From IMG/VR virus record IMGVR_UViG_3300045286_000094, positions 1 to 39,710 of that record: 39,710 bases of DNA. The stretch is one strand, 5' to 3'. The translations under genes were made by a program, and so were the position numbers. The notes beneath the pieces were generated by a model. That model was not told the DNA's origin. It did not search any database and saw nothing but the letters and a program-made list of their open reading frames with translations. Positions 3,029 through 39,710 of this stretch are shown here, piece by piece; the first letter of the stretch is position 1, and every line of letters starts with the position of its first letter. Source of the DNA: a virus.

Positions 3029-3495
3029 AGGAAAACACTTGCGAAAGATGCGAACAGGCCCGCAGGAGAGAAAAGATCATTTTGGCTGGTGTTGTTCTTT
3101 ATCTCATCCTGAGTGCCGCAATTTCTGTTTTCAGCGCTCCTGTCGGGACGATAACAAATTCATATATTCATTGGGCATATACGACTCCGACGCCGACCGG
3201 AGTGATTTCAAATCCAACCGTGAGCGTCATGTATATAGATCATGGTCCGCTTAATTCCAGTGGGCAGAAGTCAGGGATCGTTATCAGGCTTACAAACAAG
3301 CCTGTGCTTCCAATCCCCTTGGCAAACGTTTCGGAACTGACATCGAATGCACTGACATCGATCCCTGTCGGGACATATTGGTTTGAGGCAAAAGCACTTT
3401 TTACGAGCGGACATCTTGTCACCTACGGAGTGGGAACGGGCGTGTGGTCGGATACTCCGGCCATTGCTTGCCCTACAATCATAAGACCTAAATAG
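3025..3495 (+). CDS. Membrane-anchored Fn3-like protein with N-terminal CxxC
   Basis: 156 residues. The ATG at 3025 has an AAAGGAG ribosome site and overlaps the previous stop (ATGA); the longer frame from 2983 has none. The N-terminus has C6-x2-C9 and a cluster of Arg/Lys, then a membrane segment at about residues 19-39. The exported part ends with GTYWFEAKALF and a WSDTP-like strand, the pattern of the last strands of a fibronectin type III or Ig-like sandwich. The next gene encodes another signal-peptide Fn3-like protein, so the two may act together in the periplasm or at the cell surface. Function unknown. Confidence 0.75.
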   Translation: MKENTCERCEQARRREKIILAGVVLYLILSAAISVFSAPVGTITNSYIHWAYTTPTPTGVISNPTVSVMYIDHGPLNSSGQKSGIVIRLTNKPVLPIPLANVSELTSNALTSIPVGTYWFEAKALFTSGHLVTYGVGTGVWSDTPAIACPTIIRPK

Positions 3496-4284: not shown

Positions 4285-4899
4285 ATGGGTTTTAGTATAA
4301 AGAGCATTACGAAGCCAGTATCGAAATACGTGGGCTCTGTTAGTAAGATAGCTGAAAAGGCAATTCATAATCCTGTTGGTGCATGGACAGATTCAATAGC
4401 AGGAGGATTGAATGCTATTACTCTCGGTCAATCAGGGAAAATCTTCCGCGGTATGGCTGCTGCCAGAGGCACTGCAAATCAAGCAGAAGCAATGTCAGCA
4501 GCACAGCAAGCCGAGGAGCAGGCAAGGATTGACGCTCTGGCAACAGACGCCATTACCAAGTACAAGAGCGGACAGTTGACACCACAACAGCAGGCGTCCA
4601 TCGATCAGGCGAAGTCCGTGCGCGATGCCCAGGTGAAACAGCAGATGAGTTCGCTTGGGATTACGGGTGGCACAGCGGAACTTGGCATGAACCGGGAATC
4701 AGACCGCATGAGAACTTCCGCGATAGACACTGCACTCGACACCGAGTTTTCAAAAGCAATGGAATCCCTGGGCCTCGAAAAGCAGGCGGCCGATGTCATC
4801 TATCAAATGAGGAAAGAAGATCAGATGGCGTCTGCTCAGGCATTCGCATCTTCCATGCAGGGGATAGGAACTGTCGTTGCACTTGCGGCATTAGCATAA
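4285..4899 (+). CDS. Putative internal virion/ejection protein, 204 aa
   Basis: ATG 4285 is chosen over ATG 4279 because the AAGGAGGG ribosome site lies 6 bases before it but touches the earlier ATG. The protein is almost all helix: an N-terminal amphipathic region, a Gln/Ala-rich coiled-coil middle (QAEAMSAAQQAEEQ) and a hydrophobic Ala-rich C-terminus (GIGTVVALAALA) that could enter a membrane. It is first in a run of helical proteins leading to the 1545-residue giant, the arrangement of podovirus ejection (inner core) proteins. Role inferred from composition and position. Confidence 0.75.
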   Translation: MGFSIKSITKPVSKYVGSVSKIAEKAIHNPVGAWTDSIAGGLNAITLGQSGKIFRGMAAARGTANQAEAMSAAQQAEEQARIDALATDAITKYKSGQLTPQQQASIDQAKSVRDAQVKQQMSSLGITGGTAELGMNRESDRMRTSAIDTALDTEFSKAMESLGLEKQAADVIYQMRKEDQMASAQAFASSMQGIGTVVALAALA

Positions 4900-4908
4900 G
4901 GAGACATC

Positions 4909-5496
4909 ATGAGAATAGACAATCCAGTAAGCGGGTATTTTGCCAGCCGGAGACGTGAAGGACAGCGGGTTGCAGATGCCGAGGCGGCTCAGGAAAAGGT
5001 CTCTGCAAAAGCACGAGCCCTTGCACAGCCGGAAACAGATCGCTATCTGTCAAATACGACAAGCCCTCCGCAGACGCAGTTGCTTGATACCGCCCAGGCC
5101 GCCGAAACCAAACAGGCAGAAGACTTCTATCAGCAGGCCGGGATGGAAAAGACCGACATGATGTCGAAGGAGTTCAGCGAGATCCAGCTCAACAGGCAGC
5201 TGCAGGAAGCGGTCATGCACGAGAACACCTGGAAGAAATCAATCCAGTCTCTTGGGTTCACGCAAGAAGAAACACTTCAGCTCCTTACCGAGTATCGGTT
5301 GGAAGCCAAACAGGAGCAGGAAGCATTTACCAACCTCATGCAGCAGCTTTCGAGCATGGGAATGATCATGATGGTCCACCACGGAAAGAAGGGTAACCCT
5401 CCTGACGGAGAGAAGGGTAACCCTCCTGTTAATCAAACAGGTCTTGGTGGAATCAATATGAGCGTGCAACCACCGCTGTCGATCGGAGGTAAATAA
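4909..5496 (+). CDS. Coiled-coil virion protein, 195 aa
   Basis: Good TAAGGAGA ribosome site. The protein is charged and helical throughout, with Gln/Glu/Lys-rich heptads around residues 20-150. Near the C-terminus a KGNPP motif occurs twice, encoded by an 18-bp tandem repeat at 5387-5428. No family recognised. Its position between two helical proteins in the ejection-protein cluster suggests an internal virion component. Confidence 0.75.
   Translation: MRIDNPVSGYFASRRREGQRVADAEAAQEKVSAKARALAQPETDRYLSNTTSPPQTQLLDTAQAAETKQAEDFYQQAGMEKTDMMSKEFSEIQLNRQLQEAVMHENTWKKSIQSLGFTQEETLQLLTEYRLEAKQEQEAFTNLMQQLSSMGMIMMVHHGKKGNPPDGEKGNPPVNQTGLGGINMSVQPPLSIGGK
5387..5428 (+). repeat. Two 18-bp direct repeats containing a GGGTAACCC element
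   Basis: The 18-bp unit occurs at 5387-5404 and 5411-5428 (24-bp period). Each unit contains AGGGT-A-ACCCT, an interrupted palindrome, and encodes KGNPP in the coiled-coil gene. It may be just a coding duplication. Confidence 0.7.
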
Positions 5497-22757: not shown

Positions 22758-22790
22758 GCGCCCGCGCGCTTCATTGCGCGGAGCGGGCGC
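22758..22790 (-). repeat. GC hairpin before DUF4326 (C)
   Basis: Arms GCGCCCGC (22758-22765) and GCGGGCGC (22783-22790), perfect 8 bp, plus an inner 4-bp stem. On the minus strand it ends just before the AAAGGAGG of DUF4326. Confidence 0.75.
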
Positions 22791-22804
22791 GAGAATGGAT
22801 GTTA

Positions 22805-22912
22805 TCAGCGGAAAAGGCGGTCTATGTAGGGTGCGATGTAAATGACCGCGATGTAAGAACCAACAACGACATAAACCATGAGGGCAAAGATCAGGACGCT
22901 GAGCGTTCGCAT
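22805..22912 (-). CDS. 35-residue membrane peptide
   Basis: An excellent GAGGAGG site seven bases before the ATG supports this tiny gene. Residues about 5-28 (SVLIFALMVYVVVGSYIAVIYIAPYI) form a single membrane helix, with a basic end (DRLFR). Small regulator or envelope peptide; function unknown. Confidence 0.65.
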   Translation of the reverse strand: MRTLSVLIFALMVYVVVGSYIAVIYIAPYIDRLFR

Positions 22913-22937
22913 ATGATCCTCCTCTGAATAGAATGAA

Positions 22938-23277
22938 GCCGTTTATCGATGACGGCAAACGCTCCTGTTGCACCAGGAGTAATGCTGTCGCTTGCGTAGG
23001 GGGACAGGCCCCTTGCGTGTCGTACGTCACACGCTCTTGTGGTCGTTGTTCGGGCAGGAAATACTGTTGCGCTGTAAGTGCGCTCCTGGATGCCGAACTG
23101 GTCGTTAACGGAGCCACTACGCCATGCTTTCTCTCCGCATGGGGGGACAGGTAGGCGTCCGGTAACGCCTCGTTGCTGGTGCAATCTACATGGGTTGCAC
23201 CTCCTGTCTATGGAATTGCTCAACCTGTCTCATCATATACGACTTGGCGTAAGAATGTTGTCGTTTGAGACAGGCTG
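22938..23277 (-). ncRNA. Hairpin-dense non-coding segment, candidate structured RNA
   Basis: About 340 bases without a convincing gene on either strand but with many perfect stems: 22938-22956 (GCCGT/ACGGC), 22962-22979 (CTCCTG/CAGGAG), 22998-23013 (AGGGG/CCCCT), 23015-23034 (GCGTGT/ACACGC with a CGTACG palindrome in the loop), 23048-23098 (GTTCGG/CCGAAC), 23122-23142 (CCATGC/GCATGG), 23153-23170 (AGGCGT/ACGCCT), 23178-23201 (GGTGCAA/TTGCACC) and 23221-23277 (12-bp arms, one mismatch). A minus-strand terminator closes the gene upstream (23281-23307), so the segment starts a new unit. Strand is inferred from the terminator and from SD-like sites that lie on the minus strand. It could also be a replication or regulatory region. 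Confidence 0.5.
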
Positions 23278-23280
23278 AAC

Positions 23281-23307
23281 AAAAGCTCCGATACAATGCC
23301 TCGGAGC
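23281..23307 (-). terminator. Intrinsic terminator after the 102-residue gene
   Basis: On the minus strand GCTCCGA-(9 nt)-TCGGAGC, perfect 7 bp, followed by TTTTGTT. It lies just after the stop of the gene at 23321-23629. Confidence 0.75.
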
Positions 23308-23320
23308 GGGGCCCGGAACG

Positions 23321-23629
23321 TCAGAACGGAGTGGTTTCGTCAACCACGGCCTCTTTCTTGTTCGGAGAGGCGGCGCTCATTGCGGTTGAGGTCAGGCGCC
23401 ACTTGCGGTATTCCATGACGCGGGGGTTGACCTTGCCCTGCTCGATCTGCTTCAGCACGCTGAATGCTACCGACCAGTGCAGCCCGGGACCGAAGAACTT
23501 CTCGGTGAGAAACTGCATCTGCGATTCCCGCTTCGCCTCGTCGATGAGGCCGAGCTCGAACTGTGCCTGCGTGGTGTTCATGGCCTTCGAACCCCACTCA
23601 ACGTTGTGTCCTGCTGCTGTTGTTCCCAT
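23321..23629 (-). CDS. 102-residue phage protein (FGPGLHWSVAF)
   Basis: ATG 23629 has AGGAGGG seven bases upstream. Contains FGPGLHWSVAFSVLKQI and GKVNPRVMEYRKWRL, a pattern I associate with small conserved phage proteins of unknown function. A terminator follows its stop, so it ends a transcription unit. Confidence 0.75.
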   Translation of the reverse strand: MGTTAAGHNVEWGSKAMNTTQAQFELGLIDEAKRESQMQFLTEKFFGPGLHWSVAFSVLKQIEQGKVNPRVMEYRKWRLTSTAMSAASPNKKEAVVDETTPF

Positions 23630-23817
23630 TGTCGTTCCCTCCTGTTTTGAATTTGCGCGCACGCGCGCTTCGCAAAGCGGAGCGTGCGCGCGGTTTTGAT
23701 CAGCTCAACCAGTTCCGTGCCTGCCACGACCACGGTGGGGCTTCTGGCCTCCCACGCAAGCAGGAACTCCCGCACGCCCACTGTTTCGAGCAACAATAAC
23801 GGATTGTGCAACATCAT
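23578..23817 (-). CDS. 79-residue unknown protein (tentative)
   Basis: Open frame with GAGAGGAGG before ATG-ATG. The product (LLLLETVGVREFLLAWEARSP then VELIKTARTLRF) is helix-rich and plausible, but it overlaps the next gene by 52 bases and its 3' half runs through GC hairpin D. Kept as tentative. Confidence 0.45.
   Translation of the reverse strand: MMLHNPLLLLETVGVREFLLAWEARSPTVVVAGTELVELIKTARTLRFAKRACAQIQNRRERQWEQQQQDTTLSGVRRP
23655..23691 (-). repeat. GC hairpin (D)
   Basis: Arms GCGCGCACGC (23655-23664) and GCGTGCGCGC (23682-23691), perfect 10 bp, with an inner CGCTT/AAGCG stem. It resembles hairpin C in size and loop (CTTC/GAAG-like). Confidence 0.8.
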
Positions 23818-23895
23818 TCATCGCCTCCTCTCCCCGCCCGCTTCACCGAGGGCGGCGGGGAGGGAGGCGGTCCGCGTACTCGCGGACACCTTTCG

Positions 23896-24016
23896 CGAGC
23901 GCAGCGAGCGTGAAGTAGAGCATGGCGTGGCGAAGCCACGGCCTCCGGTTGCTTTAGAAAGTAGCGTCGAGCGAAGCGAGACGGCTTCCGCTATGGGGTT
24001 CGGCGAGCGGAGCGAG
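23896..24016. repeat. Three CGAGCGNAGCGAG motifs
   Basis: The 13-base motif occurs at 23896-23908 (N=C), 23968-23980 (N=A) and 24004-24016 (N=G) in a non-coding stretch. Each can form a GC/GC stem with a three-base loop flanked by tandem G-A mismatches. A shortened copy is at 25109-25119. Confidence 0.65.
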
Positions 24017-24017
24017 C

Positions 24018-24055
24018 CGTCAAAATTTTGACAGCAGAGTGTCATTTTATTGACA
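24018..24055. promoter_or_regulatory. Operator pair O1/O2 (TGTCAA-N4-TTGACA type)
   Basis: O1 24018-24033 (CGTCAAAATTTTGACA) and O2 24040-24055 (TGTCATTTTATTGACA), centres 22 bp apart, i.e. two helical turns, on the same face of DNA. The same sites occur again at 24923-24959 on the other side of the zinc gene. Probably bound by a dimeric phage regulator. Confidence 0.7.
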
Positions 24056-24075
24056 CCCTGCCGTCTTTCCGACAA

Positions 24076-24708
24076 TTATAAATCTAGTGATTTTGCAATA
24101 AGTCTGCCAATTTCAATATTGTGTCTTGCGGCCTGTTTTTCATAAGGGGAGTTCTGATTAACTATCCGCTGATAACTTTCAATCAAGCGCGCATCGTAAC
24201 CCCGGATCGAAGCGGTGCAATCTTCATGAATGCAGAATGAACATTTGGACAATTCTGTTTCTTTGAATTTCGGGCATATATCTGCCGAGTTGCATTCTTC
24301 GCAACTTTCAAAAGGGGTTGCATCACAAGGTCTGTTTCCGGACTGTTCAAAACCGAAAAGCTCAAAAGCTTCCGATATGCCACGCTCGTCATCGTTCCAC
24401 TCAACGCCATTTCGTTCTTTCGGCGCCGAGTGATACATTGTCTCCTGTGCGTCCATAGCTTGCTCCATCGTAAGCAGGAAAATCTCGTCCATAACGGCGA
24501 GGTCCAAAGCATGATTGCCGTATCTGACATGCACTCTATGCAGGGCCTCTGCATCGCACTTGCCGTCTGTTTCTTCTGTCCAGACATGCGGGAGTTCACG
24601 GTTGCAGTTGTGGCAATACCTTGAGTCAATGCAGGACCATGCAAAACACTTGTGGCATTGCACTATTCTATGTTTCTCCCCGTTCTTCATAGTAAGCATT
24701 CGTACCAT
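24076..24708 (-). CDS. Zinc-ribbon protein, first gene of leftward operon
   Basis: 210 residues; ATG 24708 has a CAGGAGG site, and the longer frame to 24768 does not. N-terminal zinc ribbon C18-x2-C21, C26, C32-x2-C35; a helical middle with FLLTMEQAMDAQETM; a second Cys-rich part (CEECNSADIC, CSFCIHEDC). Likely DNA- or RNA-binding. Its flanks carry the operator pairs O1/O2 and O3/O4, so it may be the regulator or its main target. No family recognised. Confidence 0.75.
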   Translation of the reverse strand: MVRMLTMKNGEKHRIVQCHKCFAWSCIDSRYCHNCNRELPHVWTEETDGKCDAEALHRVHVRYGNHALDLAVMDEIFLLTMEQAMDAQETMYHSAPKERNGVEWNDDERGISEAFELFGFEQSGNRPCDATPFESCEECNSADICPKFKETELSKCSFCIHEDCTASIRGYDARLIESYQRIVNQNSPYEKQAARHNIEIGRLIAKSLDL

Positions 24709-24922
24709 TTTGGTTTCCTCCTGTCTGTGGTATGTACTACGCTTCCTATATTGCAGGAACCATACCATTTTGTATGATGCTGATATTCAACAGGAATTCT
24801 AACCATATGCTTTGATTGTAAAACCTACCGACATGTCAACGAATTGGCTAAACAATCGAATCAAATACTTAGCTATGTTAAGAACTCCGACAAGCTCTCA
24901 AAAACCGTCGGAAAGCTTTACA

Positions 24923-24959
24923 TGTCAATAACTTGACGCACACTGTCAAACTTTTGACA
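24923..24959. promoter_or_regulatory. Operator pair O3/O4
   Basis: O3 24923-24938 (TGTCAATAACTTGACG) and O4 24944-24959 (TGTCAAACTTTTGACA), centres 21 bp apart. Both arms contain TTGACA, so they could overlap -35 boxes, but no good -10 partner was found. O2 and O4 share the context TTGACACCCT. Confidence 0.7.
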
Positions 24960-25184
24960 CCCTCCTTAAAAGCCAAAAGCAACAGACGGGAGCGACACCA
25001 TTCTGTCAGCCTGAGCAGGATCGCCGTTCCAGGTGCAGAGGCGGGGTGACGAGCCGCTATAACCCGAAGTCAAGGAAGCGAGCCGCGCCATCCACAAATG
25101 GCGAAAGGCGAGCGAAGCCACGGGGTAGGACTTTATCGATCCCGCGCGCAGCGCTCCGATCCCGAAGAACCACGGCCTATCAGT

Positions 25185-25367
25185 AAAGGCTTCTAGCAGG
25201 TGTTGCTTCTTGTGGTAGCGGTGGCTATACTAGCTTGCGAAGAAAGGCTTCTGGCCCTTCGCCTTTGGACCAATAGCCTGATGCATCACGATCCTCCCGG
25301 CAGAGAGCGAACGGCGAAAGGCTCTTGCCGTTGGTTCTGGTTTGGCTTCTGGTTCTTGCCTCTGGCA
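25185..25367. repeat. AAAGGCTTCT short repeats (iteron-like)
   Basis: AAAGGCTTCTAGC at 25185-25197, AAAGGCTTCTGGC at 25243-25255, AAAGGCTCTTGCC at 25317-25329, and a GGCTTCTGG/GCCTCTGGC cluster at 25343-25367. Repeats of this kind in an intergenic region often mark an origin of replication; not proven here. Confidence 0.45.
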
Positions 25368-25708
25368 GTTGGGTTTGACGTGGGTCAGGATGGGGCCTCT
25401 CCCCATTCCCCAAAAAAAGTTCTTTGCAGTTACGCTTTCCTTTTGCTCTGCACTCTGCTCTGTACGCGGCCGGCTTCTGTCAATATTGTCAATGGTGTGC
25501 GGGTATGATCGGCTCTGTATCCCGTGTGTAAAGCGCCTCGGCGTTACACATCGCTCAAAACAGGGGAATAAGCTGAAAAATAAGCTACCCCGTCTATTTT
25601 CACTTTTTCCCCTATGGGTGTAACAAGCTTCCCCGGGCTTGTTCCTCCTTGACAGCGTGGATCTGGAAAACAGGGAAATAAATCGACCGATAATTTTGGA
25701 GGGCAATT

Positions 25709-25771
25709 ATGTCCCAGTTTCCCAGCTTCCCTGTATCCCTGGGCTTCCCGGCGGGAAGGTCCATTTGCTGA
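25709..25771 (+). CDS. Possible 20-residue leader peptide
   Basis: TTTTGGAGGG five bases before an ATG; 20 Pro/Phe/Ser-rich residues, followed after 72 bases by the rightward promoter. Too short to be sure; could be regulatory or chance. Confidence 0.3.
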   Translation: MSQFPSFPVSLGFPAGRSIC

Positions 25772-25843
25772 TATCGGCATATGCTGGTTTCGACAAATGT
25801 AAGGACAAAACCCCTGCTTTCTGGGAGGGAGGTTCTGTCTTGC

Positions 25844-25872
25844 TTGACATCGTAACAGTTCTCTGGTATTGT
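25844..25872 (+). promoter_or_regulatory. Rightward promoter with operator, leaderless start
   Basis: TTGACA (25844-25849), 17-bp spacer, TATTGT (25867-25872). A perfect inverted repeat CGTAACA (25851-25857) / TGTTACG (25870-25876) covers the spacer and -10. The ATG at 25880 is seven bases after the -10 box, so transcription should begin at or one base before it. Confidence 0.75.
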
Positions 25873-25879
25873 TACGGTC

Positions 25880-26380
25880 ATGGAAGATCCGGTTCCATAC
25901 GGTGACAAGGGATATTCGTGTTTATGGTATCCTTCGCTTTCTAGGGTTCCTGTTGGGTTCTGTGCGAAGCAGTATCGGCGGCAGGAGGCGGCATCGGCCT
26001 GTGCGACCTGTGAGCGCGGGAAAAAATCCGCTGAAGATGAGATACAAGGGATCAAGGAGGCAATGATGTCGAAGAGACCGGAAGAGGGTTGGGTGTGTCC
26101 GAGCTGCGGCCGCAAGCATCGGGACGGGAAGGATTGCGGGTTTACGGGCGTTTCGAAGGAAGTCAAGGAAGAACCGAAAAAGACAGGGTATATCCCGCTT
26201 GTTTCTCTGGACTTCAATAAATACCCGAGGCTGTATCAGGAACTCGAAGAGGTCGCAACAGAGGAATTCAGGACGGTGGCGCAACAGATCCTTTTTTACA
26301 TGCACGAGGTTCTGGTGGACGGGGATGAAGGTGAAGACGTTGTCAAGATCACGGAGGTTAAAAATGGCAATACCGCTTGA
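25880..26380 (+). CDS. Zinc-ribbon protein, leaderless, with internal start
   Basis: 166 residues, no ribosome site at ATG 25880 and no other start upstream before a stop, but the promoter -10 lies right before it. The first 60 residues contain GFCAKQYRRQEAASACATCERG, a Cys-containing pattern seen in small phage proteins; residues 70-90 hold CPSCGRKH..GKDCG, a zinc ribbon; the rest is helical and acidic. A perfect AAGGAGG precedes ATGs at 26063 and 26066, so a 104-residue shorter product may also be made. Function unknown; it is first in the rightward operon. Confidence 0.75.
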   Translation: MEDPVPYGDKGYSCLWYPSLSRVPVGFCAKQYRRQEAASACATCERGKKSAEDEIQGIKEAMMSKRPEEGWVCPSCGRKHRDGKDCGFTGVSKEVKEEPKKTGYIPLVSLDFNKYPRLYQELEEVATEEFRTVAQQILFYMHEVLVDGDEGEDVVKITEVKNGNTA

Positions 26381-39317: not shown

Positions 39318-39710
39318 GAACTCTCGTACTTGATACGGTCAACAAGAGCCTTGTCGCTTGGATATCCACGGCCGCATCTTTTGCGGAACCAGACTTCACC
39401 GTTCATTATGCCGATACGAATGGGACAACCTTCACGGAGGGGTCTCAGGATGGGGTCCTGAATGGATCCAATTTGGTAACAATCTGCGATCCTCCTGCAA
39501 CCGGATATCGTCGTGTTATCAAGTCTATCACAATCAACAACGTCGATATTGATCTCGTTGAACTTTACGTTCAGTTCGTAAACGGCGCAAACGCGAGAAT
39601 GATCTGGCATGGCATTCTTAGTGTCGCCGACGTATGGACCCTTGAAGGAACGTATGATAGCGCTGGTGCCTACAAGGGGACGGGAGGAGGTGGCGGGGGT
39701 GGCGCCGCAA
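39314..39710 (+). CDS. Tail fibre N-terminal part (3' partial, likely joins 3-815)
   Basis: ATG 39314 overlaps the preceding stop. The 132 visible residues start LVLDTVNKSLVAWIS, then FTVHYADTNGTTF, GYRRVIKSITINN, and RMIWHGILS before a Gly-rich tail (GTGGGGGGG). This resembles the N-terminal domain of several phage fibres that precede collagen or beta-helix parts. The last base is the first of a codon that base pairs 1-2 complete (AGG), and frame 3 at the left end is open, so the gene likely continues there. Confidence 0.8.
   Translation, partial: MRTLVLDTVNKSLVAWISTAASFAEPDFTVHYADTNGTTFTEGSQDGVLNGSNLVTICDPPATGYRRVIKSITINNVDIDLVELYVQFVNGANARMIWHGILSVADVWTLEGTYDSAGAYKGTGGGGGGGAA

Follow-up and report, generated by a model that had tools for sequence, protein, structure and literature searches.

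A hairpin-dense non-coding segment in an uncultured tailed phage: a candidate structured leader for a tiny membrane peptide

Introduction

Described here is a structure-dense, non-coding segment spanning positions 22938 to 23310 of an uncultured phage genome, which hairpin counts, folds, and codon scores mark as a candidate leader with the minus strand favored. The explanation that we tentatively put first, and regard as possible rather than probable, is that the segment serves as the structured 5' leader, on the minus strand, of a 35-residue membrane peptide within a leftward early operon. The window referred to throughout is the 39,710-base virus record IMGVR_UViG_3300045286_000094 at its full length (positions 1 to 39,710).

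Results

Genomic setting

The window derives from a tailed phage, as indicated by an SU10-like portal and capsid identified with weak Pfam and PHROGs scores, and the capsid is ∼55% identical to those of MW202825 and MW202753. Also encoded are an Erf annealing protein, an exonuclease, a ParB-like protein, and a DUF1376 gene product. Relatives are recognizable via the terminase, the portal, and the capsid, and those in IMG/VR amounted to 582 confirmed stretches, 80 of which were kept. Searches of viral contigs for close relatives with the portal, the DUF932-like protein, and Erf as queries yielded none, the capsid query alone giving matches, and no DUF932-like protein was found in the genome contigs. 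When the first 26.4 kb of the window was compared with twelve relatives, only three open reading frames had a match, namely those for a holin, a 92-residue protein, and the exonuclease, the last in one contig only. Several of these twelve contigs are fragments, and the contents of their early regions cannot be read from this comparison. In one sequence, L004 (1465–5409), the match to the terminase large subunit is split into three pieces (1465–1947, 3061–3456, and 4498–5409) with ∼1 kb between them, suggesting introns or other insertions.

The structured segment sits in a leftward (minus-strand) row of genes. Its upstream neighbor (23321–23632, minus strand, codon score +0.35) encodes a 103-residue protein of unknown family, and a search with 23321–23662 revealed no relative of it in phages or in 50 kin records. 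On the other side, likewise on the minus strand, lies the open reading frame for the 35-residue hydrophobic peptide MRTLSVLIFALMVYVVVGSYIAVIYIAPYIDRLFR (22805–22912), which displays a codon score of +0.20 and a best 19-residue hydropathy of 2.67; a DUF4326 gene is next downstream. A likely control region extends from 24706 to 25880. Within it, the non-coding stretch at 25545–25780, upstream of the rightward genes, carries repeated AAAACAGGG(G/A)AATAA and CAGGGAA/TTCCCTG words, and the fold of 25488–25880 has z-scores of -3.9 and -2.4. Operator-like repeats, palindromic and of the TGTCA-N-TGACA / GTCAA-N-TTGAC type, at 24019–24056 and 24924–24959, flank the gene at 24076–24705 on both sides.

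Coding signal and known RNA families

The first-pass annotation had proposed a structured RNA of a new kind, with no credible gene on either strand. On the phage's own codon usage, all six frames of the segment score between -0.10 and -0.26, as compared to +0.07 to +0.35 for 17 of the 20 training genes when left out, and the absence of a gene is thereby confirmed. A cysteine-rich, 73-residue open reading frame on the plus strand (22933–23154) was rejected as a gene, with no Shine-Dalgarno sequence by eye and a codon score of -0.19. With respect to known RNA families, the window contains no Rfam covariance match at the gathering score, GOLLD and ROOL included, again in agreement with what had been proposed; the leftovers for the segment are chance-level microRNA- or snoRNA-type matches with E values of 0.3–5. 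Three other classes were considered and set aside: tRNA or tmRNA genes (none by ARAGORN), a retron (the proteins scanned include no reverse transcriptase), and an integron attC site, for which GCTCAAC is present at 23219 but inspection by eye showed no matching GTTRRRY box where the 17-bp hairpin ends on its opposite side.

Hairpin density and fold stability

The segment had been described as dense in hairpins, and indeed it contains ten perfect hairpins with arms of at least five bases and loops of 3–15, as compared to 3.4 in dinucleotide shuffles, one out of 300 of which reached ten. With arms of at least six bases the count is six versus 0.84 (0/300), such that the shuffle mean is exceeded about threefold for the shorter arms and sevenfold for the longer ones. 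Local inverted 6-mers number 17 against 5.3 in the shuffles (0/500). The minimum free energy of the whole segment corresponds to z-scores of -3.9 for the plus strand and -5.5 for the minus strand, with none of 100 shuffles equally stable, and when local pairs only are allowed the values are -6.0 and -5.8, respectively (0/200). By number of hairpins alone the segment is not unique, some kin contigs having 7–11 per 383 nt, several of them in stretches with long open frames. Gene calling for structured gaps in the kin contigs was crude and much of the high-scoring DNA looks coding; no analogue is either claimed or denied. The signal for an internal duplication of the segment is weak, its score being reached by 17 of 500 shuffles.

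The neighboring gap at 23633–24075 is as anomalous as the segment itself (z-scores of -6.0 and -5.8), which is consistent with palindromes, REP-like host insertions included, having accumulated passively in a hairpin-rich early region and having no function of their own. Three similar GC-rich hairpins at 22758, 23657, and 23830 point the same way, as does conservation that is shown nowhere. The segment's own hairpins, however, are not copies of one family, and a long gap without function is unusual in the compact genomes of phages. We consider such passive accumulation credible but somewhat improbable.

The three GC-rich hairpins (22758–22791, 23657–23690, and 23830–23863) are 62–79% identical to the first, and each lies just upstream of a minus-strand ribosome-binding site. 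Four hairpins with GNA triloops stand in a row on the plus strand at 23886–24020. The exact core GAGCGNAGCGA occurs in three hairpins (23897, 23969, and 24005), with flanks that differ but match, and nowhere else in the window; tandem G-A pairs are possible in this motif.

Choice of strand

Because palindromes stabilize both strands, stability alone cannot choose between them. Other observations favor the minus strand, which is not thereby proven. The fold on this strand is better defined than those of the shuffles as well as more stable, as is characteristic of structured RNAs: its positional entropy is 0.31 versus 0.71 in shuffles, none of 200 being as low, whereas 30 of 200 are as low for the plus strand. 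The whole-length z-score is larger on the minus strand, a 17-bp helix (below) is complete only there, and both neighboring genes and the terminator-like hairpin between the segment and the upstream gene point in the minus direction. Counting against it are two helices at the 22951–23018 end that are longer on the plus strand.

The same palindromes would fold in either strand of the DNA, and hence a role at the level of DNA fits the stability data equally well. The segment would then be a protein-binding, recombination, or replication site, its inverted repeats acting in duplex or single-stranded DNA and GACAGG/CCTGTC forming part of a binding site. In accord with such a role, both strands are anomalous in stability, and the minus-strand helices are almost all Watson-Crick, with 4.5 G-U pairs against 10.0 in shuffles, a scarcity that inverted repeats in DNA would likewise produce. 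Additionally, five of the 26 copies of GACAGG/CCTGTC in the window fall within 383 bases, and the phage carries Erf, exonuclease, and ParB-like genes. Opposed to these points are the lack of an iteron array or regular spacing, the differing sequences of the hairpins, the absence of an integrase among the proteins scanned, and the location of operator-like palindromes elsewhere, at ∼24020–24960; no cognate protein was identified. A DNA-level site is thus a credible but somewhat improbable alternative to a leader.

Architecture of the minus-strand fold

Read along the minus strand, the first element just after the 103-residue gene is a terminator-like hairpin, GCTCCGA-9-TCGGAGC followed by TTTTGTT, at 23307–23278 (P 0.92). 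The first-pass annotation had placed a terminator on this strand, and the hairpin can be read directly in the sequence; the consensus scan missed it on account of the 9-nt loop. There follows a 17-bp helix with an inner 5-bp helix (23216–23282), which is complete, with two G-U pairs, on the minus strand and has two mismatches on the plus strand. Next is a three-way junction (23146–23208) in which GACAGG/CCTGTC closes two hairpins (23178–23201 and 23153–23170). Beyond the junction lie the hairpin CCATGC/GCATGG (23122–23142), a stacked hairpin composed of GTTCGG/CCGAAC, CAGGA/TCCTG, and GCGC/GCGC (23048–23098), the hairpin GCGTGT/ACACGC (23015–23034), the hairpin AGGGG/CCCCT (22998–23013), and the hairpin CTCCTG/CAGGAG (22962–22979). 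The CGTACG palindrome noted at first pass is found in the loop of the 23015–23034 hairpin. The repeat noted with it, GGGGGACAGG, occurs twice (22999–23008, within the 22998–23013 hairpin, and 23142–23151), with no further copy in the 39.7 kb.

Located at 23186–23205 is a start-stop site, AGGAGGTGCAACCC-ATG-TAG, in which a strong Shine-Dalgarno sequence precedes a start codon with an immediate stop. Nowhere else in the window does a strong Shine-Dalgarno sequence precede an immediate start-stop as in this AGGAGG-8-ATG-TAG arrangement (AGGAGGTG-ATG-TAG); a two-codon case occurs at 39436 on the plus strand. In the predicted fold the ATG lies in a hairpin loop and most of its Shine-Dalgarno sequence in a stem. 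As a single instance, the site could have arisen by chance. Strong Shine-Dalgarno sequences followed by ATG and a stop are likewise features of the lambda bar and axe-txe minigenes (PMC8708949), whereas in the segment the stop is immediate, the Shine-Dalgarno sequence is within a stem, and the site is a putative one known from sequence.

The Shine-Dalgarno sequence of the peptide itself, AGGAGG at 22923–22918, is predicted to be occluded. When the leader is folded together with the first codons, this sequence and the start codon pair with the peptide's own early codons, their unpaired probabilities being mostly below 0.1; as computed without a shuffled control, this predicted sequestration is suggestive only.

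Searches for homologues

No homologue of the segment was found in phages at E≤1e-5, matches of ∼20–35 bases being all that appeared at E≤10, and none was found in plasmids. The 50 kin records gave only matches of ∼14–43 bases. An exact pattern for the segment had no match in IMG/VR, and a further pattern search there returned one match, whose local similarity covers 33 bases with an E value of 0.39. A single-sequence covariance model of 23122–23282, run against 50 sources, gave a best foreign match with an E value of 0.048 that lies mostly inside an open reading frame. The two-copy GGGGGACAGG pattern was met in seven stretches of viral sequence and in at least 118 of genome sequence, and the 15 loci listed are unrelated GC-rich repeats or chance pairs. 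As the nearest phages found have little in common with this one apart from head genes, the failure to find homologues in the collections searched carries little information on function.

The pair search also led to Poribacteria sequences (L122, L127, and L144) with repeated, REP-like CGGGGGACAGGCCCCCG hairpins beside CTACG/CGTAG; hairpins of the GGGGGACAGGCCCC type recur in Poribacteria. Like REP/BIME elements (PMC3733652), the segment has GTAG ahead of a palindrome (plus strand, 22996 and 23151), but its hairpins do not recur in this genome. Near-identical copies, as in REP/BIME, were not found: the segment occurs once in its record, and its own hairpins form no repeat family within 22.7–26.0 kb.

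Discussion

Of the original proposal of a new structured RNA, the non-coding and structured character of the segment and its lack of a known family hold, and a functional RNA is neither established nor excluded. An independent non-coding RNA would account for the tight succession of helices that pair with high probability on the minus strand, for a stability greater than that of all shuffles, and for the lack of coding signal. Against it stand the absence of an Rfam match and of homologues in the collections searched, the lack of a terminator on either strand at the downstream end, and the lack of a convincing promoter for the segment in the promoter scan, and we judge it unlikely. The ornate GOLLD and ROOL RNAs are longer than the segment. 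Like them, it packs helices closely within non-coding phage DNA (PMC12286853), but it is ∼370 nt in length and has no Rfam match, nor is a terminator seen downstream on either strand. The missing terminator disfavors a discrete RNA of the GOLLD/ROOL kind, as does the way in which the segment continues on the minus strand directly into the next gene's ribosome-binding site.

A leader for the 35-residue peptide, the explanation preferred here, would start after the terminator-like hairpin of the 103-residue gene and end at the ribosome-binding site of the peptide. It would presumably be transcribed with the operon by read-through, by antitermination, or from an unrecognized promoter. The folded array, the occluded Shine-Dalgarno sequence, and perhaps the start-stop site would hold translation of the peptide at a low level or make it conditional. 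The lack of a convincing promoter and of any homologue that could show conservation weighs against this explanation as well.

The anatomy of the segment resembles that of type I toxin mRNA leaders such as tisB/istR-1 (PMC7708055; PMC11228461): a tiny hydrophobic peptide is encoded downstream of a long folded leader in the same orientation, and prediction suggests, no more firmly than stated above, an occluded ribosome-binding site. For tisB, only a processed, highly structured mRNA is described as active, with its ribosome-binding site sequestered (PMC7708055). The segment differs from the tisB/istR-1 system in lying in a phage early operon, in having no sequence similarity, and in having no antitoxin RNA identified, the one candidate signal being a 9/12 promoter-like site on the plus strand at 22906–22934. 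Membership in the class is not claimed. It is conceivable, and we think very unlikely, that the folded array, the start-stop site, and the occluded Shine-Dalgarno sequence jointly gate the peptide, possibly together with an antisense plus-strand RNA, as a hitherto undescribed phage-borne switch that operates in the manner of type I toxin-antitoxin pairs.

Dense hairpins in a gap that lacks homologues do not, on their own, demonstrate a functional RNA. The segment is, nevertheless, a well-bounded experimental target. Were it a discrete RNA, it would represent a new family, and if it is a leader that gates the peptide, it would show, in a phage, a tiny membrane protein whose expression is under the control of its leader.
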